Assembly: GCA_034670405.1 (NCBI GenBank)
Contig: JAXDDX010000166.1
Coordinates: forward strand, 496,001 to 560,000
Origin: Hoplostethus atlanticus
Taxonomy: Eukaryota > Chordata > Actinopteri > Trachichthyiformes > Trachichthyidae
DNA: 64,000 nucleotides
Direction: 5' to 3'
The notes under the pieces were generated by a model, which saw only the letters and a list, made by a program, of their open reading frames with translations, had not been told where the DNA came from and searched no databases. Below, one piece after another: positions 458 to 63,788 of the stretch. The translations under genes and the position numbers were made by a program. The first letter of the stretch is position 1; each line of letters begins with the position of its first letter.

Positions 458-1869
458 CTGGCTGGTGCAGGCACTCCATAGGTAGACACAGGTACCTAGT
501 CCAACACTGAGGACATTGAGAGAGGACCAGTCCACTAGGTTGAGGTAGAAGTCGTCCTGAAGCTCTGGAGCATCCAGTACTTTGAATGGAATTTTGGAAA
601 TCTTACGTGTTGGTTTCCTTGGCGACCGCAGCAGTTTCTGGCTGCAATGCACAACACATTCATTTATGAATAATAAAAACTACAGATCAGAAGGATGTGA
701 ATATAATGCTTGGTCTTCTCTTAGATCAAAGAGGTAACATTAGAGGAATGACAGCACAAGGAAAGCTTATTACCTGTTGCTACTGACAGGTGATAGGGAA
801 TACGGAGAGACGGCATTGCCATCCTCTTCTGGAAGAGCCCGTTTGGCACTTATGGAATACTATTAAAACACAAACAGATGATTGATGTTGCTTACAAAAG
901 ATGTGTATGATAAACATGATTATCATTTAAAGATGAAAAGGATAATTTTAACATTCCATAGATTAAATAATTTACATGTCAATTACAGTTATGGTAACAT
1001 TTCTTACACTAAAAAGGCTCCTTTTGGCAGGAGTGGAGGGCTGGAGACGGCGGTCTTCTGACTGGGGGTCCTGGACTTTCTCTATGCCTGCTCCTAGCAG
1101 CTCGTTCTTCAGTAGGGCCGAGTAAGCCAGACCATCCGCTAAAGGCAGGAAGAGAGAGAAAGGAACAGCGAAGGAAAAATAAAGAAGAAAGGGGAGATCA
1201 CACTGGATTCACAATCTAATTAAATGCAAACACTGTGTTCCCTTTCCAATTCAATCTTTATCCGTAGCTCTCGAACACCTCTAACGCCGGGGACACACCG
1301 GACGCGGAACGGCGACGAAAGGCGCCGAATGCCGAGGAAAATTCTTTCCGCGCCCATGTTAACCAATGTGGCCGTGCACACTGGCCGCGGAAGGGCGCCG
1401 AATGGCCGCGGCCTGCAGCGACCGTTTCGGCGTCAGGTCTAAGATTTTCTCGATTCGTGAGCGAATGTGTCAAGCTGGGCAGGAAGTCAGACACAGGAAC
1501 GGCATAGAGCATCCGGTCAATTTCCAAAATATAACAAATTTCAAAATAAAACACCCTGATTGATGGTATTTCTGAGTTGTGTCTAAACTTTTACCGTCTG
1601 TGTCTAAACAGAGAGCGAGCGAGAGACGAGCAGGCACACGCACACAAGCAGAAAGAGAGAGATGTATATGTATTATGCATGTGCATTTTAATAGACACCA
1701 TACTACTCAAGTATACATAATGCTTAATAAGTTCTTACTTGTGTTGCCCTGTTACTTGTGGCATGTACTTTCATATTGTTGTAAATGTTGTTCTTTGTCT
1801 GTTCATATACGTTTGCTTTGGCAATATAAGCACTGTTCACTTTTCATGTCACTAAAGCTTCAAATTGAA

Positions 1870-1907
<38 letters not shown>

Positions 1908-1919
1908 GAGCAGGCACAC

Positions 1920-1980
<61 letters not shown>

Positions 1981-2001
1981 GAGGAGCAGGCACACGTACA
2001 A

Positions 2002-2053
<52 letters not shown>

Positions 2054-3727
2054 ATAGAGAGGGGGAGGAAAAGAGACAGACAGATACACAAAGAGAGAGA
2101 CAGAGGGAGGAAGACAGAGAGAATGGGAGAGAGACAGGGAAAGGGAGAGGTAAAAAGGGAGAGATGGGGAGAGAAAGCAAGAGATAGAGAGAGAGAGAGA
2201 CCAAACCCCTACATTGAGAAAACCAGCGGAGATCGGCGCCTTTTGGCGCCGTTCGGTGCCGGTGTGAACAACCAAACTCCTTCTTGCTCATTCGGCGCCG
2301 ATCGCGGCGCTTCCTTTTCTTTCCGCGTCCAGTGTGTCCCCGGCGTCAGGATCACAGAAAAAATTACACTAAGGTTTGTCTAGTCCTTATCTCCAGTTTC
2401 CACGAGCCTCCCTAGGCTTTGTAAACTAGAGAAGGTCAAACTATCAAGTTTGACAGGAACAGACAGACAGATACCAGTAGAAATAATCTGAAAAAGCGAA
2501 CAAGACTACACTCACACAAAATACACAGATACAATAGAAAGGCATATCAGTATCTCACGATAAAAGTGGATTGGTTACCTTTATTACTATCTGTGGTGCC
2601 ATCTTTGGTTTTCCTGTTCTGATTGTGCGACTTCTCAATTTCCTATGTCAGGGAAACAACAATTATGAAAAACATTCTCAACCAAGTCTTACAAACCCAG
2701 GTATATGTAAAAAAAACGAATTATAGACAAGTAAAAGAAGAATGTTTGTGGATAATGTCATGCGTTTCCTTATGAACCATAAAGTAACACATTCATCTTG
2801 AAGCTTGAATCTTGAAAAGAGCAGGAGATTTAGCAGGAGTTTAAATTCCAGGGTGCATTGCAAGAGACTCACATTGATGCGGTGGAAGTTGACACTCCAG
2901 TTGGCACCAGCCCGGGAGGGAATGAAACGGTCGCCATGCTTGCTGGGGGAGGACAGCGGGGAACTGGTGGGAGTCAGAGCTTGCACTGTTCCTATGGCCT
3001 TCTACACAAGGGAGGAGAGGAGAGACCATCTCTGACCGGGAACCACACACAAACAGGCCTTGGACACTGATTTGAGATCAAAACAGGAAGACATTGAAGT
3101 GGCAGATTGGGTGTTTGTGTGAGGTGTCAAGACCAGGAGGCGGCATTCACAAAAGCTCATCATTTGGTCACTGAAGTCTTGTTTTCACCCAACAACAGTA
3201 ATACCACCAAATGACAGAGATTGGCTTGTTGAACCGTTTCTGCTCCCAACACTGTGGCACCCCCTCCCCACCCACATTAATTATTTTGCCAGTTTTGAAC
3301 CCTCTTTGGGACAAGCTAGTATCACACTATTGTCAAACTAATGACTAAAAAGAAAACCCTTGTCCCAAGGCTAGATGCAGCACTTTCATTGCAGTTTTGT
3401 TTATATGTATTACTTAAAGAGGAAATATAGCTACCATTACTGTTAGACCAACTATATAAATCTTTAGCCTATAGAATTAATTGAAGTGCTATATTATAAC
3501 GTCACTATGAGGATGTCTGAACATAACCCTATGTCCATAACATGTCAGGGAAGAAAAACAAAATACAAAATAACACTTGTGAATAAATAAATAAAGAGTG
3601 CTTTTCAGTCCATAGGGGATACATCAGACAATGTGGAAAGGGTCCTTTATTCACTTACTATAGGGCTTGCATTCTCGTTTTGGATGTTGATCTGCCTCAG
3701 CAGCCTGCACTCATAGTCCTGGTCCAT
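458..3727 (-). CDS. fzr1: Fizzy-related protein 1 (Cdh1), APC/C co-activator; N-terminal 221 residues, partial
   Basis: Co-activator of the anaphase-promoting complex that recruits D-box and KEN-box substrates in late mitosis and G1. Six coding exons on the minus strand join in frame: 3727-3659 (starts MDQDYECRLLRQ), 3001-2873, 2642-2579, 1138-1008, 859-774 and 641-458. The C-box DRFIPSR is at about residues 47-53, followed by GANWSVNFHRIN. The segment with DGLAYSALLKNELLGAGIEK and the SPRKPTRKISKIPFKVLDAP stretch match vertebrate FZR1. Several SP/TP sites (SSPSK, STPAK, SPYSLSP, RSPRKP) are plausible CDK inhibitory sites, as known for the family. The last visible exon ends after ...LWSACTSQ, just inside the WD40 propeller, with a GTGTGT donor; the remaining propeller and C-terminal IR tail lie beyond base 1. 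The start of exon 2 could be 3001 or 2998 (both in frame). Bases 1-457 are intron. Whether this is the a or b teleost copy cannot be told. Confidence 0.95.
1281..2349. mobile_element. Non-autonomous TIR DNA transposon in an fzr1 intron, holding GA arrays
   Basis: The 29-bp ends 1281-1309 and 2321-2349 are inverted copies with 27 of 29 matches (core GCCGGGGACACAC). Both arms are GC rich and are followed by subterminal copies of GGCGCCGAAT; a further related segment lies at 1364-1437. The interior has no transposase and is mostly simple repeat. No clear target-site duplication was found, so the superfamily is not assigned. It sits in the intron between 2579 and 1138 of fzr1. Confidence 0.65.
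1615..2200. repeat. (GA)n arrays with an interspersed 20-odd-bp minisatellite unit
   Basis: Long pure GA runs lie at about 1873-1906, 1923-1977 and 2003-2050. Each is preceded by a variant of GAGCAGGCACACGCA, also seen near 1627, so the array grew by duplicating a compound unit. The long open frames across it on both strands are low complexity (alternating Arg-Glu or Ser-Leu) and are not genes. Confidence 0.9.
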
Positions 3728-4660
3728 GATAACTAAAGACAGAATAAGACTGGTCATTAATCAACGCAATAATCAAATCATCTTGCAATTTACTGAATCG
3801 TTAGTATGTAATAGTTAGTTAGTAATGAAAAGTTAGTAACATAAACTGACATACTTGTTAACTATGATTTGTTCTGGGCAATAAGATTAGCTGTCTAACA
3901 ACTGATCTGTCTGAGAACACATGATATCTTTACCAGCAATGCAGTGTTGATTTCTGCTATTACCAAATAGCTACTATTGTGCTCTAACTACTAGACGTAG
4001 ACGGCTAACTACAAGACAGCTTACTGAGTTAATAATACTCAGGCTGGTTGACTGACTAGTCGACTAATTTTATACTTTAAATCCACTTGCCTAAAAGCAA
4101 ACTGGGCAATGACATTGCAGTGCACACGATTAGATGTGAGTCGGCTCAGTCTACTTCTTCCAACAACACTTGGATTATCTTGAAACCCGTTTGTGTACTA
4201 TGACTGTAAAGTCACACTAAAGCCAGGTCGCTGCTGTGTTGATTTCATGCAACATTTGCGCGTGAAAAACGTTCAGTTACCGAACCACATTGAGCGACCA
4301 TTTATCAAGTATCTAACAGACCTTTAATTGTAACAGTGAAAATAAACAAAGACCGGGCAACTCGATCGTGCATCAAATAGGCTAATGTTAGCCTTCTTCG
4401 GTGAACTAACGTAAGCTAACGCTAGCTACCTGGCTAATACATTAGCAACATTGTTGGTCCACAGTCAATAATTACATGAAAACGTACCGTCCACCGTTAA
4501 ACTCTTCCCGTTACGTACCGTTGACTAGTGTATCTTACCGGTGTCGATTCCTGTTAAAGATTTGCTGTTTTATATGTTTTATTCCCAAATGGTAGTAAAC
4601 TAAATACAAATGTTTTCTTTTACCGAACGTTCAATTGGGGTTCGCTAAGGACCATGGGAA
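3728..4660 (-). other. fzr1 5' UTR intron and probable first non-coding exon
   Basis: On the minus strand an acceptor (CTTTAG) lies a few bases before the fzr1 ATG, so a leader intron is likely. Possible donors for a non-coding first exon are near 4541 (CACCG then GTAAGA) and near 4490 (GTACGT). Neither is proven. No coding sequence is seen in this stretch. Confidence 0.4.
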
Positions 4661-4672
4661 GGAAGTGACGTC
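4661..4672 (+). promoter_or_regulatory. ETS-CRE composite site in the probable fzr1 promoter
   Basis: GGAAGTGACGTC combines an ETS core with an ATF/CREB half-palindrome. It lies about 120 bp upstream, in minus orientation, of the most likely first-exon donor of fzr1. Such sites are common in CpG-type housekeeping promoters. Function is inferred. Confidence 0.4.
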
Positions 4673-7053
4673 GCCGTTTTTGAATCACACATTTTGCGTT
4701 GCTAAGGAAACGCCACTCAGAATGATTTACTGTTCTATTTACTGTACTTCTTTGCTCAGTCTCTAAACGGAAAACTGCCACCATATCTCTTTGAGCAGCA
4801 GAAGATATAATAAAACATTTCGACATTGACACAGCCAAGCTGGCTAATATACACTTACTGCAACATTGTACCGTTTGCTACAGTGTTCAAAAACTGATGG
4901 ATCAAGCATCTCCTAGACTAGAGCTTGGCTTTGGTCTGAAATATGAGACCGGCCCAACCCAAGCCCCCAACATTTTCAGTCAAACTCAAACTCCTCCTGA
5001 GCTTTAATCAAGAATAAGAATCAAGACACAGTGTATGGCAACGTGGGGCTCGATTATCTCAGATAGTTGGCAATGTCAATGGGAGAGGTGCAACAGGGTA
5101 TTATTAGCAGTGTCATATTCAGTCTTATATGTGCTGGATAAAATGAAGTTGCAGCCATTTTGACATTATGATTTCATGCTGATTGACAGTATCATTAAGA
5201 TGGCCATGTTTAAATATGTTAAATCATTTTAGAAATTGCAATATTTTGGTGTTACTAAATGTTTTGATTCTTGGTAACAGATCACACACTCTTCATGTTA
5301 CTTTATCTCTGAAATGGCTTTTATTAGAAAACAAAATCAATCTTAATAGAACTGGATGATGGCAATGAAATGTATATAATCTGACATTAAGTAAAAATAC
5401 AAAGATTGAATTCCATGTGCAAAGGCTTGAAAATAAAGAAACATTTAACAACAAATCCTCCTCTTTGTGGGTAGAATTCTGACCAAAGAAATAAATTGTT
5501 TACTGTTTTGCAGAATACAACGATGCCTTGTAGTGTGTAATATGGCTGGGGAAAATTTGAAATCTACAATGACAAATTTTATCTGCAAGCCAAGACTGAC
5601 AAATACGTTGGTGTCCTATTTTAAAGGACATCTAAAAATTTGCTCAACAATGGTCCAACAACAATTTACCTATAAGAATTTGATTCAAAGTGCCACAGAG
5701 TAGGTACAGTAGGTTCAAGTAATTGAGTGAAATTCTATCAAAAGCCTAAATACACAGTTAAGAACTGTTAAATGTGCAAAACTATAGATCTTTAAAAAAT
5801 AGTATTTCAAATGGACTGAATGATAAACAAATAATGGGCTAGCTAAAAATCTTCTTTCTCATAAACAAGAAGGGAGTAAAATGTGTGGCTCAACTCGGCA
5901 GGTAAAGGGCCCACGCAATTCGTATCAGGACAGTAATAGTGCATTGCCAAAGGTCTTCTAAAGTGGACAGGGATTCTAATAATGTAAAACCTCTTCACAC
6001 ACTGCAATTACTGGCTCACACTAGAGGTCCACAAACTCCTGGATTGCTCCTTGCTTAAAGCATAATTCTGGTTATTTTCAACCTGGGCCTTATTTAACAA
6101 TTTCTTTCCATCATGCTGATCGATTCAGATCAAAATTTCATCAATTACGTCACTGCACAGCTCTGCATACCCCTCAGTTTGCAGGGAGTGCTGCAAACCA
6201 ACGGGGCAAAAGGAAACTCAAAAAGTCAAACCTAAAACCCCCCTCGTATGTGCAAGACATACAGGCATTGTCGCCAGCATGTGTGAGCAATGTGTGTCAA
6301 ATAGACTAACTGAAATGGCATGTGATAATTGATAATCACAGCTATCTAAAAGACAAATATAACTACAGTGTGAGTGTTATTGTGTTGAAAGGGCATAGTG
6401 GCTTTTTGGGTACAAATGAAGTAAGTGAAGTAAAATAAGGCCCAGGTTGAAAATAACTGGAATTATCCTTTAACTTACTCATGTTCATAGTATTGTAATT
6501 CCTGAACAACAAACACAACCCTAGCTCTTCAGCAGTACTTGGGAACAGAGACTTACATCATCACATTATTTGAGAATACAGCAAGTATATGACTAGTAGA
6601 AATTATAATATAAAACATATTTACTATACAAATAATAGAGTCAATCATCTAATCAAGGCAAAGTGTGAAAATGATACAGAACAATGGCATGTAAAATGTC
6701 AGAAATTACACAAAGTACAGTGTTGTGTTTTCTATGGCCCAACTTCACGTGTAATGGCTGACAACCACATGATAGAGAAATCCTTTCATCACTTTATATG
6801 GGCTCAAATAACCTACTACAATATCTGAATAAGGATCTTTGTACATTGAGCAAAACTCAATATACTCAAAATTAAGACAGTGAAGATCTGAAAAGCTACA
6901 GCGTATGTGATAAGGCCATGATTGGTGCGGTGTGATCATTGGAATGGGAAGACAAAAAAGGGAATTTGGTAGAAATTGGTAGATAGCTAAGAGTCTTGAA
7001 GTGTAGTGACAAGGGAAGAAAATAAAGTGTATCTAGACATGGGAGAAGCTGGG
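4673..7053. other. Intergenic DNA between fzr1 and plekhj1
   Basis: AT-rich sequence with no ORF that looks like a gene. It contains the TTAA-flanked MITE described separately and the 3' flank of plekhj1. Nothing else is recognised. Confidence 0.6.
6055..6473. mobile_element. MITE with about 41-bp inverted ends and TTAA at both borders
   Basis: The sequence 6055-6096 reappears inverted at 6433-6473 with only a few mismatches (core TTTTCAACCTGGGCCTTATT). Both outer ends are TTAA, the target site of piggyBac-type elements. The interior has no transposase ORF. Assignment to piggyBac rests only on the TTAA borders. Confidence 0.65.
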
Positions 7054-8914
7054 CTACATTGAAGAGGTATCTTTAGGCATGAGTTGCAGACCATTGCTGA
7101 CCTGGAAGCGAGTTTCATCTGATATACCATACTGCTCCAAGGGGTCCTGGGGAGAAAGCAGACGGTGAGTAAAGGCTGTAAGTGGCACATACACTCCCAG
7201 GATTAGGGGTGTGATTCACACTGCAGACGCTCCTTGTAAAATGTATGCACTCGTGACACTGTGAGGTGCTTTGTATAGAAGCACCAACCATATGGCATGT
7301 ATTATGATAAGCTGTTGTGATGGATCTCACCTTGCCAGTCAGCCTGTGGATTTCAGTGCGATAGAATATAAGGTTCTTCCTCATGAACTCATAACTGAAA
7401 GAGAGGACAAGTAGATGTGACACTTGAAGAAAAGTCTAGACACATAATATCTAAAAGCAAAACTATAGCCCACAAAAGCAAAGCTATAATCCTTTGGAGT
7501 CGAACATGACATGCAGCTTACATTTCTTCATATGACCTTGAATTTTAAATCAATCGAACAGCAAGCAAACCCAATTTCGGCATTACTGAGGTAAAAATCT
7601 ATTCTTCATGGCTCCCCAGGGCCTACATGTCTGCTGCACTGAGTGTGAGGAAACAATCCTACCTGGCCTTGATGATGGAGTCTATCCACTCCACACACTG
7701 CTCTTCAGAGTCACACTCAAACAGATACTTCCTCTCTGCCTCATCTAGAAATGCTACAAACACACACATATACATCAATAAGCCTAGAATTACTCAGAAA
7801 TAATTAACAACCAAATACACAAGCTTTAGAATCAGTATACTGTTCATATTTACCCATTTTTTAAAGCCAAATAAAATGTATTTAGGAAATTGATGAGACA
7901 ATGTGAGATCTGTATATGCATAGAAAGTGACTGCCAAGGCTCAGGGGTGGGATCATCAACACATGCATAGCTTCGGGAAATCAATGCCTACTTCAGCATA
8001 GTTCAAGTTGTGATATGAAATTAGGAGTACTGGATTCCATTAAAATTGTCTATTGCTGTTAGGTGACGGATTCACAATGCATTTTATACACCGTGCTGCC
8101 TGAATAGACCTGCTTACTCTACAAAACACAATTCAAGTAAGCTTACTCATCGCCACTGACAAAGAACTTGAACACAATCACTCAGTGAGAAACTGGGTTA
8201 GTCTTGTGAATGTGAAAAGGGGAGGCAACTCTGAAGATGGCTCACCAATCGAGAAGGCCTGGCTGTCCTCCCTCTCTACCCGGCACTGCTCCAGTAGCAA
8301 AGCTCCAAGCGGCTGACAAATAAATGATGATTAAAAAGAATGTAGTGTATTTGTTTACTTTACAGGAAATTAGTTTGCTTAATAACGAGGAACAGTGTAT
8401 AAAACACATACATGGACAAACCATATGGTGTAACGCCTTATATATAAATATATATATAGTGCACGACAGATGTGTGCTCTACTAAGCAAGTACCGTTTGA
8501 CTTACCTCCTCCTCATCAGTCCGGAAATAGAAGAGGAAGTTAACAACCAGTTTCACCAGCCTCTTCTTTACAACTGTATGATGACAATAAGGAATCATAT
8601 TAAAACACATTTGCCAATTACAAAACATACGGAGTACACTACTGTTACATAGATGATAGCTGAGGTGAACACACCCTGTTCTGGTTCTAATGCTTTGTTT
8701 CTATCGGTCAATGGTCCTAACATTTAGTTAGTTTCAGCCCAAAACATGAAACGGAAGTAAGTATGAAAAAGAGCATGCCAGCAGGTTAGTTGTGAATCAT
8801 TAGGTATCAAGCCAGGCTACCATCTCCTTTCTTGGGTCCTCGCATCCCCAGCTCGGCTGCCCTTTCTGAAGGTTGGCGACTGAGCGAGACGAGCTCCTTC
8901 TCGTTGAAACGCAT
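7054..8914 (-). CDS. plekhj1: Pleckstrin homology domain-containing family J member 1
   Basis: Six minus-strand exons join in frame to 158 aa: 8914-8821, 8573-8506, 8312-8246, 7753-7663, 7394-7331 and 7146-7054 (stop TAG). The protein begins MRFNEKELVSLSRQPSERAA and contains RGPKKGD. A PH-type fold follows (RLVKLVVNFLFYFRTDEEE, then RKYLFECDSEEQCVEW near the C-terminal helix), and then YEFMRKNLIFYRTEIHRLTGKD. All splice sites are GT-AG and all phases agree. The family is about 150 aa and single-domain; its cellular role is poorly defined, with phosphoinositide or membrane binding presumed from the PH domain. The C-terminus, GLQLMPKDTSSM, is slightly longer than I recall for mammals. It is head to head with sf3a2, as in human. 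Confidence 0.93.
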
Positions 8915-16957: not shown

Positions 16958-17931
16958 ATGAAGCAATGCCACTGGTGAGACAGATGAATACATACCGCAT
17001 AAAAAAGATACAGAATGATGTAAAGATGTTACCGTTATGATCATAGCTTGTCTCCCCCCATAATAAAGTGTCACCCTGGAAAGACCTACCTGCTTCGACA
17101 TTGGGGCTCCCCTGGGCAGCGTCAGGGAGCCTTTGTCAAAGGCCCGTTGTTCGTTGCAGAGATGGCAGCAGAGTCACCCTTTGGACTCTCTGACAGCCAA
17201 GCACAGGTGGTGGAGAATGAAAAAACAAAAAGCATTGAGTGTCAGTCAGAGGGGTTGACTGAAGCATGGGGTTGACTTTACCATGTGCCATACAGCAGTC
17301 AAATCCCAAGAGAGGGGCAAGTGGGGTAAAGAAAGGGGCAGAGGTTGTACCAAATTGTGGCCCTTGTTGGAGAAATGTGATCATAATCGCATCTGACTCA
17401 GTATGAAAGCATTTTTAGTAAACTAATTCCAAAGATTTTAGGCAACTAAAGCAACAAAACAATGTAAACAATAAATGCAATATTTTTTTTTTGTTCTGAG
17501 CATTTAACAATAAAATGGACAAAAACAACAGAAGCTTATTTCTAACAAGGAGTGCTACAAGCGTATGGTGGTGGAGCAGTGGCGGCTGGCCAATAGAGGG
17601 CGCTAGGGCGCCGCCCCACCACTCCCCACATCCTAGACTTCATTGAATCATTTTCTTTTTAAATGAGCGAGGTAAATATTATATAGTTAGTGAGTAAAAT
17701 GTATAATCTGCAATAAAATGTAGATTAAAATTGTTCTACGTTGTCTAAAGTTACTGCTAGGCCACGTATTTCCGGCCTGGGGCGCAACAATTTTTTCCCA
17801 TTGACTCGCGTTATAAATTGTACATGCGCAGTTCGCTCCTCTCAATACAAGAGATAGGAGCTTGGTGGGGCGCAGGCCAACAGCATTTATCTGAATGCTG
17901 CTGATTTACACACCACCAACCACTGGTTGGC

Positions 17932-18366
17932 AGCAGAGAGCGAGGGGCTCGTGGTACATCTGACATAAAATGCGCCAGAATGAGACAATATACTCGGTCG
18001 TTTTCAAGGAGCTGGTTTAGTAGGAAGGCTTGGCTAACTGCATGTAGTGACACCAATGCTTTATTTTGCTTTCCCTGCACCCTTTTTCAAACGACAGGTC
18101 TCAGACCCAGCATGGATTCAGACAGGTTTGAATGATTTAAACCACATATCAGAAAAAAACAAAGCAAATGTTTGGGAAAGTAAACATAGCTGCTTAGCTT
18201 GATGAAGGCTACAGGATAGGGATCTGTAAGCATAATGAAGAGGTTGACAAAAACAGGCACATCCTGTCTAAAATAATAAACTGTCAAGTTCTGTGGTGCC
18301 ATAGAGTCATTGAGAAATGTGCATCTCTCAAGGAGAGAAGGGCAAAATTTATGTACAAAAAGGTTT
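17932..18366 (+). pseudogene. Decayed hAT transposase, TTF zinc-finger region
   Basis: Three short segments in shifting frames read like the N-terminal part of a TTF-type hAT transposase: RSFSRSWFSRKAWL followed by ALFCFPCTLFQTTG (from about 17980), LNDLNHISEKNK (from 18128) and KHNEEVDKNRHILSKIINC (from 18228), then VKFCGAIESL. Each junction changes frame and stops intervene, so no functional protein is made. It marks the element as a once autonomous hAT. Confidence 0.7.
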
Positions 18367-19426
18367 AAGCCACAAGATGGCAAAGTCATATGGCTTTGAG
18401 CCAGTTCACTCAGCTTTTTGATGGCACTGGGTATTTCAAATGTAATACCATATTCATTTATTTTTTTCTTAAATGTTATTTTCTATTAGGTCTTATTGTG
18501 TCTTTTCTGACATTGTCTCAGAGGCTTTGTGTTGTCAGATTTCTTTTGCACTTATTGAGGCACTTTTCGCTTACTTTAGTCTTTCACCATTACATATTGT
18601 AGTATAAAAGATAATTATTATAAAGAATTTGCATTAATTGAAGTACCTTAACTTACCTTAAGCACGTTTCATTACAACAAATGTTCATTCATTATACAAG
18701 TTGGTGGGGTGGTTGTCTGAGAGCCAGACGGAGTAAACAGCTCTCAGCGTTGCACGTTTATGATGCAATGTGAATACAACATTTTTAATCTCTTGAATTT
18801 TACTTCTGACTGAAATTTGGATTGCAGAATTGTGATTGTGAAACCTGGAAAATTGGCATAACTGTCTAAATCAGCCTCTCTGACCAGACCCATGTTGTAT
18901 GTATGCACTATAACCAGTCTGTTCTGTTGTCTATGTTGTCTCTTATGTTTGGAGTATGAGACTGTGTGACAGGTCAAGCATAATGGCAGCAGCCTGGGGG
19001 GCTTTGGATGGGCAGTGTGTGATCACCTTTTACAAACAAAAAGCACTTGAATGGAGCAAGATATTCTTAATGCTCATGGATGAGCAGTCATGGACATGGT
19101 GGTGAGTTCTGCAGAAAATAAAGCAGCTAGTATTGTTAGTTTCTTTTTTGTTGATATTTGCTTCCCTCATTTTCTATTAGGGATTATTTTTATCTATTAG
19201 TATTTTTATTTATTCATTAGTGACCATGTGACTCTGGGTGTGATGAAATGTGTGCCGAGGCCACAGAGCTCAGATTGGCTGTGACATCATGACATTCTGA
19301 GAGACACAGTGGGCACCAGATGAAACTCAGAGCTTCAGACTTCACTCTACCAACCTGAAAGAAACAGCGATTTCATTGTCTTAGTTGGCAAACCGTTACA
19401 ATTTCATTCATTTAACAAAAGCAATT

Positions 19427-20720
19427 ATGGAGGAGAATTTCTGTCCAGGTAAGACAAATCTACTTGTATTTTTCTTTTTTAAACAGATCTACTATCCTAA
19501 AACGTTCTTTCCAGCCAGTTCTTTTACTGTCTGGTTAGTTGTCTCTGTGTGATAAAAGATGAAGCTAAATGTTTTAGAACTGAAACTCTCTGTCAGCCTA
19601 TGTTTTTGCTCACATGCTGACATACCTTGTCTCCCTTCTTTCAGCGTGGATGGATCAAGTCATTCGCCTCAACGCCCTCAAAGGTGATGATGATGAATTC
19701 ATGGCTTACATCTCAGCCAACGACCATGGGGAGAGACGATATGCTTACGCTCCAGCCTCTATCTCTGGATACGCTGTTGAGCTCAACTGTGCCCTGTCTC
19801 CATTTGCTCAGCCCACCTCAGCTGAAGACCATTGGGAGGGACGATACGCTTATGCTCCAGCCTCTATCTCTGAATACGCTGTTGAGCTCAACTGTGCCCT
19901 GTCCCCATTTTCTCAGCCGACCGTAGGCTCCAGATCTACCTGTGGACTTGAGAGTCTCCACTTCTGGGAACCAGTAGTCAGCGCAGAGGAAGACGTACCT
20001 CTCGTACCTAAGGACGAGACTTCAGGAAATGCTGAACCATGCAGCCATCCAGCCCAGGACGCCGAGACTCCATCCAACCTGCTCAGAGATGCTGAGGCTT
20101 CATTCAGCATGGCGCAAACCAGTGAGACCATAGAGCTCATTGGGAGGCTGCTGCAGCAATCCTGCATTGGTGACCTAGAAGACCACGTGTATGAATACTG
20201 CAAGAATGTACTTGGTGAAAAGTACTTCTATGCTCCTTCATCTGATGTATCTGGATTTGTGGTTGACTGCTCTTCACCCTGTGGGCCGTATATAAACCAG
20301 CTTGATACATGGGAGCCAGTCGTCACAGCAGATTCTGACTCAACGCAGTTCCTCTCAGACTTGGAAAAAGAGGAAGAGGGCCAAGACCATGTGGTCCTCA
20401 AGGAAGACAAAGTCATGTTTTCTGCCAGTGATCCAATTGATGAAAGTGCCACAAGTGTCCATGAAGATGCAAATCCTGAGTGTGATGAGAAAAACAACGT
20501 CACTACTTTGCTCTGTGCTGGGCCTGACAGCAGTATCACTGCACAGGAGGAGGGAGACTTCGTCCAAGCACTCGACCCTGCAGGACTTGATTGCTCCAAC
20601 GTTGAGATCACCGCTTCAAAACCAAAGAAAGAGAGGAAGAATTCTGGCTGCCTCTCTTGGCTCTTCCGTCTCTTCAGGCGAAAGAAGAACAGCAAATCCT
20701 CTAATGCAAATCGTACTTGA
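19427..20720 (+). CDS. Uncharacterised 365-aa repeat protein with basic hydrophobic tail, inside the hAT element
   Basis: I do not recognise this protein. Exon 1 is 19427-19448 (MEENFCP plus one base, donor GTAAGA) and exon 2 is 19645-20720 (acceptor TTCTTTCAG), phase 1. A polyadenylation signal follows at 20746. The N-terminal third has two nearly identical 35-residue tandem units (RYAYAPASIS, YAVELNCALSPF, period 105 bp, near-identical DNA). A third, diverged unit at about 200-235 has YFYAPSSDVSGFVVDC and ends TWEPVV, matching FWEPVV after unit 2. The middle and C-terminal part are acidic (SDLEKEEEGQDH, DESATSVHEDANPECDEK). The end is KPKKERKNSGCLSWLFRLFR then RKKNSK, a cluster of aromatic/aliphatic and basic residues that could bind membrane or a nuclear partner. 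There is no transposase, nuclease or polymerase motif. An inverted CCAAT box (GATTGGCT, about 19274) and a CRE-like TGACATCA (about 19282) lie upstream. Alternatives: a host gene with its own locus, or a gene captured by hAT. Confidence 0.7.
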
Positions 20721-20745
20721 ATCATTCTGCTTATTGTCTTGTTCA

Positions 20746-20751
20746 AATAAA
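20746..20751 (+). terminator. Polyadenylation signal AATAAA of the hAT-internal gene
   Basis: AATAAA starts 26 bp after the stop codon of the 365-aa protein and supports that it is a polymerase II gene. Confidence 0.6.
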
Positions 20752-23700
20752 TGTATTTAAACTAAATACATTGTGGATTCTATCTGTACAAGTGTATTTG
20801 TATAAACCAATGGATCTACTATTCTTTGTTTTAATTTTGTGCCATCAAATCATTTTATAAGTGTGCATGTCATCTTTTGTCATTTTGGAACAAAACTCTC
20901 AATATTGCCTACAGAAATAGTCTTGTTTTGGGGCTGATCCATTGGCTACCAAAGCAGGGAAGCTTCCACTGCAGACCTTTTCAAAAACAAGGAGGCATCT
21001 GCAAGATGATGAGAGATGCATTTTCATCAGCAGCCCACACCTGATTCCCTGTCATGTTACTTTACAGTTAAATGTTTTACAGCTCAGCAAATACAAATAA
21101 AGGCCTTTTCATTTATTTAAATACACTGATGATACCTTAGTACATGTTTGCTTGATTTTTGGTATAGCCCCCCCTGGAGAAAAATGCACCAGCCGCCACT
21201 GTGGTGGAGATTTTATTTTGGATGCCTTTCTCTGTCAATAGGACATTGTTTGGGTCTGGACAGCATCGGGATGTTGTTTTATTGTTCGCCAGCAGAGAGC
21301 GCCACTGTCATAGGTAACAGCAGCAGTCGACGTGACCAAAGATAGACTAGCTGTCAGGCAGATCAACAGAGGGGCCAACACTCTTCCTTATGTGCTGACA
21401 TACACCAGGGTCAGCTGGTTGCAGGCCAGTTTTATATGGGATGTTTGGTAAACAGACTCGGCTTGTGGCAAATGTTGATGATTCATGCCTTTGTTGGGAC
21501 TGTGACGTCTTGCTGAATCACACATTGCTATGCCGTCAGTAATCAGTTGAATTTGACGTAATCTCTCCAACCTTGCCCATGGTTAGCTTGACCAAGAGAG
21601 AGCTGTATCACATATGATACCCAGAGCTGCATCATATGACATCCTACTGTTGTTCTCGAAAACTGACCAGCGCCACTATCTCTGTCACTAGTGGTGCTGT
21701 GCACAACAGTGGGGATAGGCCCTCGAAACCTTTGCAGATTTGTTTGCTTGTTTAACATACACAGTGTACTATATGTTATGCATTCATGTGTGCCTCTGCT
21801 GTAGAACATGATAGTCCTATATACACATACACGATTGGCATCATCTATCATGCCTTTAGAGTTATTCTTGCTTATAATGAGGAAGTCTACGGGCTTAATT
21901 GACCAAATGTACACTCTCCCCCAGTTGGTTTGCCAATTTTTATCGCTCCCAAGGCTATGGGCTCATAACGAGCTAGAAGGCATCATCAGTCTGAATCCAA
22001 TTACTGTTGATTGAAAATCACATTTAATTTGGATAAATTAGGTCTCTTTCAAAATCAAATTGAGCTCTCCAAACCGACAAATTTCCTCCTTATTAATACG
22101 TTTTGTGAGTAATCAAAGCTCCTCTTTCTCATCCTCAAGGCGTTTCTATTTTAGAGAAGTGAAACTGGCAAGTTTGGGCCAAGGATTCAAGGAATGTTTC
22201 AAGGACATCACACGCCCCCTACGGACACATAGTGCCTGATAAAGTGAGCTAACATTTCTTCCGGACTTCTGCGCTCCCAATTCAGACACTAGAGAGATCC
22301 AGGTTGGACGACTCTTTCTGTCCCCTTTTGTCCTTATGTAATGGGGACTGTGCTCAAAGGACAGACTGAGTGTCCGGCACCCAGTGGGAGCCGCTCTGTG
22401 CCCTCCCTCACTGAGGAGTATGGTGGAGCGTGAAATAACATTAACTATGTCGTCTGCCTGCAAGTCACAGCCTTGGATGACTTCACTACAGTGAGTTAAA
22501 TTATAATTGAATTTAATTATTGTGTTTTGAATTATTCAGTCAGTGTGAAAGAAGACTTGACGTGTCTTTAAGTAGCTAACATTGAGAGATGAGTCTGATG
22601 TTTCACACCTCATCATGGCCAGAGATGGAGCATTATGCAGCGAATAAAGATATTAGACAATGGCGTTGTAAATGGAACAAACTAGAACAGGGTTAGAGGT
22701 GGATGGATGAATGGATGCTGATGCAGAATAAGGATAGAAATGGAGGAAAGGCTGCCACAGCCCCTGACAAGCAGGCAAGGTTAGTGACAGAACCGGAGAA
22801 TGAATTATCCATTCTGGATTTTTCTTCTGTGTCAGAGCATTTTCTGGAAAGGTTTTTTTTTTTTTTCCAGTACAGCAAAGGGAATCAACCTCCAACAGAG
22901 CAAGATCAGCACTTCTAATCCAATGTATTCACGTACAGAAGACTTGCAGTTTTTATGTTGGGGTTTCAGAATTCCAATGTTCAACAGAGGAACATGAAAT
23001 AGAGTTCAGTTTTTTTCTTATACATCTGTTCTGCAAAAGGTATGTTCATAGAAATGAAAGTGAAATGTTAAACAAAAGTGAGCCTAAATCATATTCTGTT
23101 TACATGCATTGAGAAGTGACTTTGTGCTCCCTATTTTCTCTTATTGAAACATTTTACAGACAGACTTTTATATAATTATAGTATAATAGTATAATATAAT
23201 AGTATAATAGAAGTATAATAGTTTTACTGTTACTTTGATTTATTCTCAGTGTATTTGCCTCTTGTCTAGGGTTTTTATTGTTTATCTTATTGACTTTGTT
23301 TGTAACAAATGTGTTTTTGTAATGTGCAAAGCAGGCAGCTACCCATCCATGGAGCAGGTTGGTCCATAGGGTGAGGTGCACTTTACCCAGAAGCACTTTA
23401 ACTGTGTTGGGCACTGGGACTGAACTCCTTCAATTACGAGGCAGCCTCAATAGACAACCTGCCACCCCTGGAGCACCGACGTCCATCTGTAGTTAACTTC
23501 CTCCTTCCTAGATGTGTTGACAGTGAAAAGCGTGTTAGAGGAGGAAAGACATGGGATCCACAAGAAGTCGATCGCATTTCTCTGTGCCGCCCGCCTTCCA
23601 CCTTGAATCTTTAATCGAACCGTTTGTGTTCTGTTTGAACCAGTTTGGGATACATGTGTTTGCCTATCATCACTCTGTATCTCTTCAACTCACTCAGCCT

Positions 23701-61300: not shown

Positions 61301-61580
61301 GATTTCAGTAAAATAGGACTTTTTCTGTAGGAAGCATTGATAATTTATAGCAGTATGGATGTCATTTTTATGAGCTTGTGAGATGATCTTTCTCATATCT
61401 TCTCTCTTTCCTTCTCATGAACATCTCATGTTTTTATTCCCTCTTCACTTGTTTTTTCTATTTATTTCCTCTCTTTACTCTCATCCTTTTCCTATCATCT
61501 GTCTTCCCTCTATGTCTTTTTGCAGGTGTATGGCGCACTGACCCTGCCTGTGATAGGCTAGGAGTCAGAGGACCAGGGCC

Positions 61581-63788
61581 ATGATTGGCTCTCCTGGCTC
61601 TGGTGGGTGTGCCTTAATGCCATGGCTGAGGGTGTGGCGATGCGTCCTGGCTGCTTTTCTGGTTGCCATGATAACCTTGATGTTGCCAGAAAGCTGCCAG
61701 GCGTGTCCACCACGGTGCGAGTGCTCGGCTCAGCTTCGGTCTGTGTCATGCCAACGGCGACGCCTCACCAATATCCCAGAAGGCATTCCCACGGAGACAC
61801 GACTCCTGGACCTCAGCAGGAACCGGCTCCGTTGGGTGCAAGCAGGAGACCTGGCACCATACCCACGACTGGAGGAAGTGGACCTCAGTGAGAACGTCAT
61901 CGCCACATTAGAGCACAATGCCTTTGCCAACCTCCAGAATCTTAAGGTGCTGAAGCTGAGGGGGAACCAGCTGAAGCTAGTGCCCATGGGGGCCTTTGCC
62001 AAGCTGGGCAACCTGACCAGCCTGGACCTAAGTGAGAACAAGATGGTGATTTTGCTGGACTACACTTTCCAGGATCTGAGGAGTCTGAAACATCTGGAAG
62101 TGGGAGACAACGACCTGGTCTATATATCCCACAAGGTAAGTTCTCCAGCATGTTATCACTACCGTGACTGCTTTACTAATGAAATATCCGACAGGAAAAA
62201 CAATTATTCACTGAATGAAAAATATCTCTATCTTGGAAATTAGGTCTGAAGGGATTATACCATCATATCAATATCAATTGAACATATTGAATCTTATTAA
62301 AGATTTTAAAGCCTGTATTCTGCACTTGGCACAGGCATTCTCAGGGCTGCTGGGGCTGGAGGACCTGACTATAGAGCGCTGCAACCTGACATCCATCTCT
62401 GGCCAGACGCTGTCCTACCTCCGCAGCCTGGTTTCCCTACACCTACGCCACCTCAGCATCACTGCCCTGGAAGACCAGAACTTCCGCAAGCTCACCAACC
62501 TGCGGGGTCTGGAGATCGATAACTGGCCATACCTAGAATACATCTCCCCTCTTAGTTTCCAGGGCCTGGACCTCCACTGGCTCTCCATCACTAACACCAA
62601 CATCACCTCTGTCCCCTCGGCTTCCTTCAAGAACCTGGTGCACCTCACCCACCTCAATCTGTCCTACAATCCTATCACCACACTAGAGCCCTGGGCCTTC
62701 AAGGACCTGCTGAGGCTGAAAGAGCTGATCATGGTAAACACGGGGCTGGTAGCAGTGGAGCCCCATGCCCTTGGAGGCCTCCGACAGATCCGTGTCCTCA
62801 ACTTCTCCTCCAACGACCTGCAGACTTTGGAAGAGGGCGCCTTCCACTCTGTCAACAGTCTGGAGACCCTCCGAGTGGATGGGAACCCCCTGCTGTGTGA
62901 CTGCCGTCTGTTGTGGATCCTGCAAAGACGCAAGACCCTCAACTTTGACGGCAGAGTGCCCATGTGTGCTGGACCGGTGGAAGTGCAGGGGAACAGCCTC
63001 AGCACCTTCACCGATTCAGCACTCTTTGACCACTTCACATGCCAGAAGCCTAAGATCCGCAATCGTAAGCTGCAGCAGGTAATGAAAATGATTAAATAGG
63101 TAAATAGTTATTGTTTGGTTATTTAGGTGAGTCTAATTGCTTCTACAAACAGATTCTTCTACATTCCCTGACATTCTATCATTTATTAATCGATGCACCT
63201 TTCCTCCACCCACTGCAGGTGATCGCTCGTGAGGGCCAGCCAGTGAGTTTCCTGTGTCGAGCCGAGGGAGAACCCGCACCTGCTATCATCTGGATCTCCC
63301 CACAGCGCCGTCGGATCACCGCTAAGAGTTCAGGGCGCATCACTGTCCTGCCTAGTGGCACCCTGGAGATCCGCTACGCCCAGCTTATTGACAGCGGAAC
63401 CTATATCTGCATCGCGAGTAACGCTGGGGGCAATGACACCTACTTCGCCACACTCACAGTGCGTAGCCTGCCGTTGGACGCCGCCTCAGCCTTTTTTCTC
63501 AACCGCTCGCTGTACAACGGCGAGTTCTTCAACGACACAAATCTAAACAGCACGCGCGTTTTTCTCAAGTTCACCTTGGACCTGACCACGATCTTGGTCT
63601 CCACGGCAATGGGTTGCATCACCTTCCTGGGGGTGGTTCTCTTCTGTTTCCTGCTGTTGTTCGTGTGGAGCCGGGGACGCGGCCAACGCAAGAACAACTT
63701 CACAGTGGAGTACTCTTTCAGGAAATCAGAACCCGCCACCGGAGCCTCCACGGGAGGGACCAGGAAGTTCAATATGAAGATGATATGA
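61581..63788 (+). CDS. lingo3: Leucine-rich repeat and Ig domain-containing protein 3
   Basis: Type I neuronal surface protein of the LINGO family. Three exons, 61581-62135, 62335-63078 and 63219-63788, give 622 aa, the usual family length. Order: signal peptide (to about residue 41), cysteine-rich LRRNT (CPPRCECS), about a dozen LRRs, LRRCT (NPLLCDCRLLWIL to FTC), one C2-type Ig domain at about 434-515 (C446, C497), N-glycosylation sites (NRS, NDT, NST), transmembrane helix at about 556-582, and a short cytoplasmic tail ending RKFNMKMI, the family signature. EDQNFRKL, EIDNWPYLEY and the Ig-to-TM segment point to LINGO3 rather than 1, 2 or 4. The introns (199 and 140 bp, both phase 0 with GT-AG ends) interrupt a coding region that is one exon in other vertebrates. 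The ATG at 61581 is the first in-frame Met after a stop; Met13 is an alternative. An acceptor at 61525 shows a leader intron. Confidence 0.93.

Follow-up and report, generated by a model that had tools for sequence, protein, structure and literature searches.

Animal Pack-TIR elements, in which captured host DNA lies between the terminal inverted repeat (TIR) ends of a DNA transposon and the copies have distinct target site duplications (TSDs), were described by Tan et al. (2021; PMC8277862), and hAT was the commonest carrier among them (208 of 370). The available text of that paper gives 4 multicopy elements in reference genomes (3 in frog and 1 in alligator), with distinct TSDs; a 291-bp piece of a 5′ untranslated region on three chromosomes is a multicopy example. 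A similar element was found in a 64,000-nucleotide stretch of the Hoplostethus atlanticus genome (assembly GCA_034670405.1, contig JAXDDX010000166.1, C166:496001–560000; hereafter the window, meaning the whole stretch analysed), where it occupies positions 17577 to 21201. A sequence-only reading had described it as a hAT transposon with an intact non-transposase gene and had called such capture known mainly from plants; the latter is too strong, as the same paper, in the text available, counts 208 captures associated with hAT elements in animal genomes and, for zebrafish, 8 captures. Our analysis indicates that the element is very probably a Pack-type hAT (Pack-hAT) in which a whole gene was captured and then amplified. 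Throughout, C numbers denote contigs of the same assembly and L numbers loci or regions from the genome, and genome-wide searches were made in the assembly of 632.8 Mb.

Plant Pack-TYPE elements carry mostly gene fragments. They resemble the window element in being non-autonomous DNA transposons that capture coding DNA, as described in the available part of PMC8903248. In the available text of PMC8277862, Ssk-FB4 of Drosophila melanogaster is also similar, with a near-complete gene plus upstream region, extra DNA at one junction and recurrent transposition; it has a 2-bp microhomology at one junction, FB4 was judged Mutator-like (MULE-like), and four copies, a protein and positive selection were reported. 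In contrast, the element described here is a hAT with far more copies, and selection on these copies is unproven. A histone H3 gene of the fungus Pseudocercospora fijiensis was likewise captured by a hAT and then amplified to hundreds of copies, all but the original inactivated by repeat-induced point mutation (available part of PMC6710886), whereas 13 frames are still open here. Searches of the open-access literature, with subscription papers outside this scope, showed no case of a whole gene amplified as hAT cargo in a fish; captures in zebrafish have been published as such.

Members of the hAT superfamily have short TIRs that start with CAG. The window element has short TIRs of this type together with an 8-bp TSD, and the whole of 17577–21201 is a complete hAT-type element with 13/13-bp inverted ends and an exact 8-bp duplication. 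Both matches, which the sequence-only reading had claimed, were exact on re-check: CAGTGGCGGCTGG is present at 17577–17589 (+) and at 21189–21201 (−), and TGGTGGAG lies immediately outside both ends (17569–17576 and 21202–21209). With up to 2 mismatches, the end motif occurs 2 times in the window where 0.80 are expected, and 17 of 100 shuffles contain it twice or more; the TSD octamer occurs 6 times against 3.03 expected. Taken singly, neither is rare in the window; it is their arrangement and the genome counts that decide. Genome-wide, the left-end 26-mer was found 552 times and the right-end 26-mer 464 times at up to 1 mismatch (0 for each reversed control), and the exact right-end 15-mer 575 times (control, 3). 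A non-autonomous element of 1.28 kb forms the hAT part and is interrupted by a 2.38-kb gene-holding insert; the features of the whole are as follows.

17569..17576, no strand: left copy of the TSD, TGGTGGAG, an exact match to 21202–21209
17577..17589, + strand: left TIR, CAGTGGCGGCTGG; the left-end 26-mer is abundant genome-wide
17577..18691, + strand: left part of the 1.28-kb non-autonomous hAT, about 90% identical (blastn) to L001–L003
18692..21069, + strand: insert holding the gene, 2378 bp, absent from L001–L003, whose join here is uninterrupted; left junction AAATGTTCATTCA, right junction AAATGTTTTACA
18692..18825, + strand: 134-bp stretch found neither in L001–L003 nor in L030, and occurring in other gene copies
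19427..19448, + strand: exon 1, MEENFCP plus the first base of the next codon, with the ATG at 19427
19449..19644, + strand: intron of 196 bp, GT..AG (GTAAG...TTTCAG)
19645..20720, + strand: exon 2 to the stop; the whole protein has 365 aa
19709..19918, + strand: 105-nt in-frame tandem repeat, 2 copies, single in the non-hAT relatives L047 and L048
20746..20751, + strand: AATAAA polyadenylation signal
21070..21201, + strand: right part of the non-autonomous hAT, 97% identical to L001–L003
21189..21201, − strand: right TIR; the right-end 26-mer is abundant genome-wide
21202..21209, no strand: right copy of the TSD, pairing with 17569–17576

The distribution of the gene was determined with the exon-2 protein, which gave 158 matches in the genome; the 150 matches listed correspond to about 95 loci, a count made approximate by a simple clustering rule and by the scoring of 114 of 224 candidates. 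Divergent copies account for 6 of the 95 loci (two on C451 and one each on C388, C569, C1092 and C77). A full-length single-frame match was obtained at 17 loci, 13 of them without a stop (open exon 2), and at 82 of the 95 exon 2 is not full-length open. Twenty regions, chosen mostly in order of protein score, were fetched, and both hAT ends (at most 1 mismatch) were present in 10 of them. The TSDs in these 10 regions matched at 8/8 positions in 6, 7/8 in 1, 6/8 in 2 and 1/8 in 1, and the six exact ones are all different (CACCCTAG, CTTCTAGC, TGCCACGG, GTTGGCCT, CCTAAATG and AACAGGAA). Because the TSDs are distinct, the gene-bearing composite has transposed repeatedly; the copy in the window is one of its complete members and has an open frame. 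The sequence-only reading had proposed a search for same-ended copies with the gene elsewhere, and several gene loci do lie inside hAT ends with distinct 8-bp duplications; its claim of a hAT carrying an open non-transposase gene with an intron was borne out as well, with spread to the roughly 95 loci. In carrying a whole two-exon gene, and in this number of loci (150 of 158 matches listed), the element differs from the animal cases in the available text of PMC8277862.

A set of 25 mobile-clade copies was assembled from the window copy, 21 copies in the 20 fetched regions (L026–L045, two in L030) and L049–L051. The right junction is intact in 16 of the 25, and the left junction in 12 of the 20 copies that reach it, the other 8 having a deletion there. 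Differences between copies are about 2–4% in the left part of the short element, the non-coding insert and the right part, and many gene copies carry other internal deletions. Chance co-occurrence, in which a hAT landed beside the gene or a gene fragment entered one old hAT, would account for the gene copies with no hAT end in the stretch read (e.g., L030). It is an exceedingly improbable explanation, given the intact junctions (right in 16 and left in 12 of 25 copies) and the differing TSDs where both ends are present, and it is already refuted for the window-type element.

The carrier was also found alone. L003 is a complete 1283-bp element with the TSD CGTGACAT on both sides; it matches window 17577–18691 plus 21070–21201 and passes straight between them without the gene, and L001 and L002 have the same gene-free join. 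Listed exact left ends on C1–C10 were paired with a listed right end no more than 15 kb away. The result showed that 63 of 83 left ends could be paired, that 47 of the 63 spans measure 0.9–1.4 kb, and that a gene match lies inside 7 of the 63, one of the 7 being a fragment only. The short non-autonomous carrier also occurs gene-free, as a repeat in its own right. Two features expected of a Pack-TIR were observed, namely a carrier without captured DNA and a composite that transposed repeatedly. The transposase that had been read as broken in at least three frames was not recovered: no hAT domain was detected by Pfam in six frames of the complete L003, six open reading frames (ORFs) of the window element (the window left part being represented by ORFs only) and five further frames of the insert. 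Weak Pfam matches in these scans (best E 0.012) were to unrelated families and below the cut-off.

All parts of the two-exon gene noticed earlier (splice sites, open frame and AATAAA) were confirmed, with a product of 365 aa. The ATG is retained in all 22 mobile-clade copies that cover it and is deleted in 3 of 25; the intron GT is retained in 23/23 and the AG in 24/24 covering copies, and AATAAA in 23 of 25. The 105-nt in-frame repeat is present three times instead of twice in L042 and L045, so that cargo copies differ in repeat number. Searches of NCBIfam, PADLOC, PDB sequences and viral contigs gave no protein related to the cargo. A match to Pfam CLAMP (E 0.026) fell below the cut-off, and the single-sequence AlphaFold2 model had a mean pLDDT of 36.5.

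Relatives of the gene outside the element bear on the direction of capture. A 50-aa segment of L047, whose middle 18 residues are missing from the fetched mobile copies except L049, matches long, repeat-rich open frames at C25:3.2M (630 aa) and on C67 (1044 aa), C77 (425 and 377 aa) and C41 (414 aa), and the matches with E < 1e-13 have 76–91% identity. With N- and C-terminal queries, matches again lay in these frames at C25, at C67 and at the two C77 loci, and were spread over three frames on C41. Given the gene's resemblance to this family, whose open frames are longer (377–1044 aa), the direction of capture was most likely from host to transposon. Three broken divergent copies (L046–L048) have no hAT ends within the 5.5–8.5 kb read and fall outside the clade of the 25 mobile-clade copies with 100% support; L046 and L047 have about 105 bp of 3′ flank in common beyond the hAT junction. 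Moreover, L049 combines a hAT left end and the mobile-clade 105-nt duplication with a source-family 54-nt segment and native 3′ flank, and from this mosaic it looks like a transitional copy. A full match to the 54-nt segment is present in 0 of the 24 other mobile-clade copies (23 loci: window, L026–L045, L050 and L051), L051 giving no match. Host-derived DNA between the ends with a parent elsewhere, a further mark of Pack-TIRs, is represented here by relatives (L046–L048 and the long-frame members) and not by an exact parental copy.

In the reverse scenario, the gene would have belonged from the start, as an accessory gene, to an autonomous hAT with two genes, and the 1.28-kb elements would be internal-deletion derivatives that lost it. 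The gene-free join at a 13-bp near-repeat, as expected of slippage deletion, and the other internal deletions in many copies agree with this. However, the same N-terminal part, repeats and C-terminal part occur in frames of 377–1044 aa at C25:3.2M, C67 and C77, L046 and L047 have their common 3′ flank beyond the hAT junction with no hAT ends in the stretch read, and the element has no detected hAT domain, so that we regard an accessory-gene origin as highly unlikely.

L030 (C25:273–278 kb) was considered as a native donor, since no hAT ends were seen and its 3′ flank runs beyond the junction. It was rejected: the full 54-nt segment is absent, the 105-nt duplication is present and the boundary is that of the type-B copies described below, identifying it as a tandem pair of mobile-clade copies. 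Among the relatives, L046 contains two tandem units of 4.1 kb (1451–8499), and L046 and L047 lie on short contigs. The 1044-aa open frame on C67 (C67:1684378–1687434, − strand), known by positions only, is matched strongly by the 50-aa segment at 11 places, some of them spaced 144 bp.

At the right junction, the native 3′ flank (L047, L049 and L051) and the short element have the 10-mer TTACAACAAA in common, with a few bases lost. A 3-bp (AAA) microhomology read from L030 was dropped in favour of this 10-mer, because the older flank is the one in L047, L049 and L051. Next to the left junction comes the 134-bp stretch, and about 13 bp of the short element is present on both sides of the insert. 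Template switching during repair has been proposed for animal Pack-TIRs (PMC8277862, available text), and the junction structure fits such a process or a composite of two elements, as in L038. In the latter case, two short hATs flanking the host gene would have moved by their outer ends and then lost their inner ends, which would be a variant of the capture step only. L038 has the corresponding order, with the gene, 151 bp of native 3′ flank, a second short element (element positions 77–300, 682–1115 and 3496–3625) and the right end. It is, however, the one such copy in the 20 fetched regions, its second element is without the left 76 bp and may thus be a later event, and the shared 10-mer is compatible with both capture routes; the two-element route appears rather unlikely.

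Under the Pack-hAT reading, a 1.28-kb non-autonomous hAT would have taken up about 2.4 kb of host DNA with a complete small gene, from its upstream region through both exons and the intron between them to the poly(A) signal; the source would be a family of internally repetitive proteins. We infer that this happened once, by template switching or gap repair. Since the composite kept both hAT ends, it could have been mobilized by a hAT transposase in trans, which would have moved it to new sites with an 8-bp duplication each time, and copies would later have decayed by internal deletion, frameshift and nested insertion. The gene copies may also be expressed.

Many hAT transposase domains are present in the genome (150 matches to PF05699 and 121 to PF14291), none of them tied to these ends. 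Two candidate autonomous partners were rejected: C5:4740585 is an open frame without a Pfam match, by eye a LINE, and C9:6267514 is a copy of the short element broken by other DNA that is, by eye, another hAT. L063, DNA starting with CAGGCCTGGCCAACCCGCGGCTC and by eye another hAT, is nested in a short-element copy on C9, with a DUF4371 frame nearby.

A second type of copy, designated type B, has native 3′ flank and no hAT right end. At 11 of the 12 loci with the flank end read (L030, L034 and L049–L057 being the 11), the copies stop within about 14 nt of one point, close to ...GAACCATGATTTAGGATCAGA, after which the DNA differs; the exception, L038, continues into its second short element. The 5′ ends vary, with the hAT left end in L049, L034 and C27 and an internal end in L050, L051 and L030, and at C79, C41 and C26 probing of the expected place gave no left end. 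The 3′ flank as query gave 41 matches, most of them adjoining known gene copies or on short contigs, and at least 5 elsewhere (48–72 bp, on C49, C14, C3, C173 and C2). L1-like retrotransposition fits the fixed 3′ boundary and varied 5′ ends; the intron is retained, no poly(A) was seen, and this origin is unproven. A hAT with a cryptic right end was rejected too, with a near-duplication of 7/8 at C27 and none at L049 or L034.

Several observations weigh against the capture of a host gene by the short hAT and its amplification. The gene-free join could equally come from deletion between the near-repeats at the junctions, and the long-frame family members are putative, not demonstrated, ordinary host genes. 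L049 is broken (exon 1 deleted and one stop in exon 2), and gene conversion could have supplied its host segment. For the 134 bp at 18692–18825, L001–L003 and L030 offer no source, and no autonomous partner was found among the two candidates near these ends and in the parts of the transposase match lists that were checked. Finally, plain right-end transposition does not account for the type-B copies, which are intermixed with type A in the tree (L045 with L050, 100%); this implies conversion, recombination or events in a more complex order.

Selection was assessed with 22 copies chosen by protein score, a way of fetching that makes the sample favour open frames. In this biased sample, the mean pairwise ratio of nonsynonymous to synonymous rates (dN/dS) was 0.61. 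Singleton changes had a nonsynonymous/synonymous (N/S) count of 86/52 with 4 stops, and changes in at least 2 copies 56/21 with 1 stop; the neutral N/S expectation is 2.4–3.3, and the shared substitutions lie near it. The dN/dS of the consensus was 0.59 (0.36–1.0) against L047 and 0.53 (bootstrap 0.34–0.88) against L048. These data suggest that past constraint on the gene is likely, and that the constraint seen in the comparisons with L047 or L048 may go back to the host gene; present constraint on the mobile copies is unproven.

The extra copies could be functional and kept by selection, the hAT being useful to the host or the gene helping the transposon, which would be compatible with a Pack-hAT. 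The 13 full-length open exon-2 copies, the largely retained ATG, GT, AG and AATAAA and the consensus value against L048 point this way. On the other side stand the fetching by protein score, the near-neutral shared changes, 5 stop-creating changes, the 82 of 95 loci that are not full-length open, and constraint that may belong to the host gene; selected copies are an unlikely explanation. A further unlikely reading is that the non-autonomous hAT acts as a gene-family amplifier, continuing to spread working copies of a host gene family, itself fast-changing and internally repetitive, across a vertebrate genome, with the type-B copies as a second, so far undescribed dispersal route. The copy number is sufficient to test selection on the cargo. 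In this vertebrate case, with a complete gene, a gene-free carrier in the same genome, a transitional-looking copy and numerous open copies that are nearly identical, it is possible to read in what order capture, amplification and decay took place. For annotation, the about 95 loci of one transposon cargo could pass for expansion of a gene family.

Elsewhere in the window, inspection of the ORF lists by eye showed one GA-rich repeat, flanked by similar frames, both at 1576–2345 and in L048 (1068–2325, the C77 copy); it is probably another mobile repeat. The coding regions of LINGO genes are usually uninterrupted. A LINGO-type gene at window 61557–63788 has leucine-rich repeat and immunoglobulin domains, and its best matches in the PDB are 2id5 and 4oqt; such a gene indicates a vertebrate and is consistent with a fish. 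Apparent short introns divide it among three frames, one of them starting at 62136 (AAG/GTAAG).

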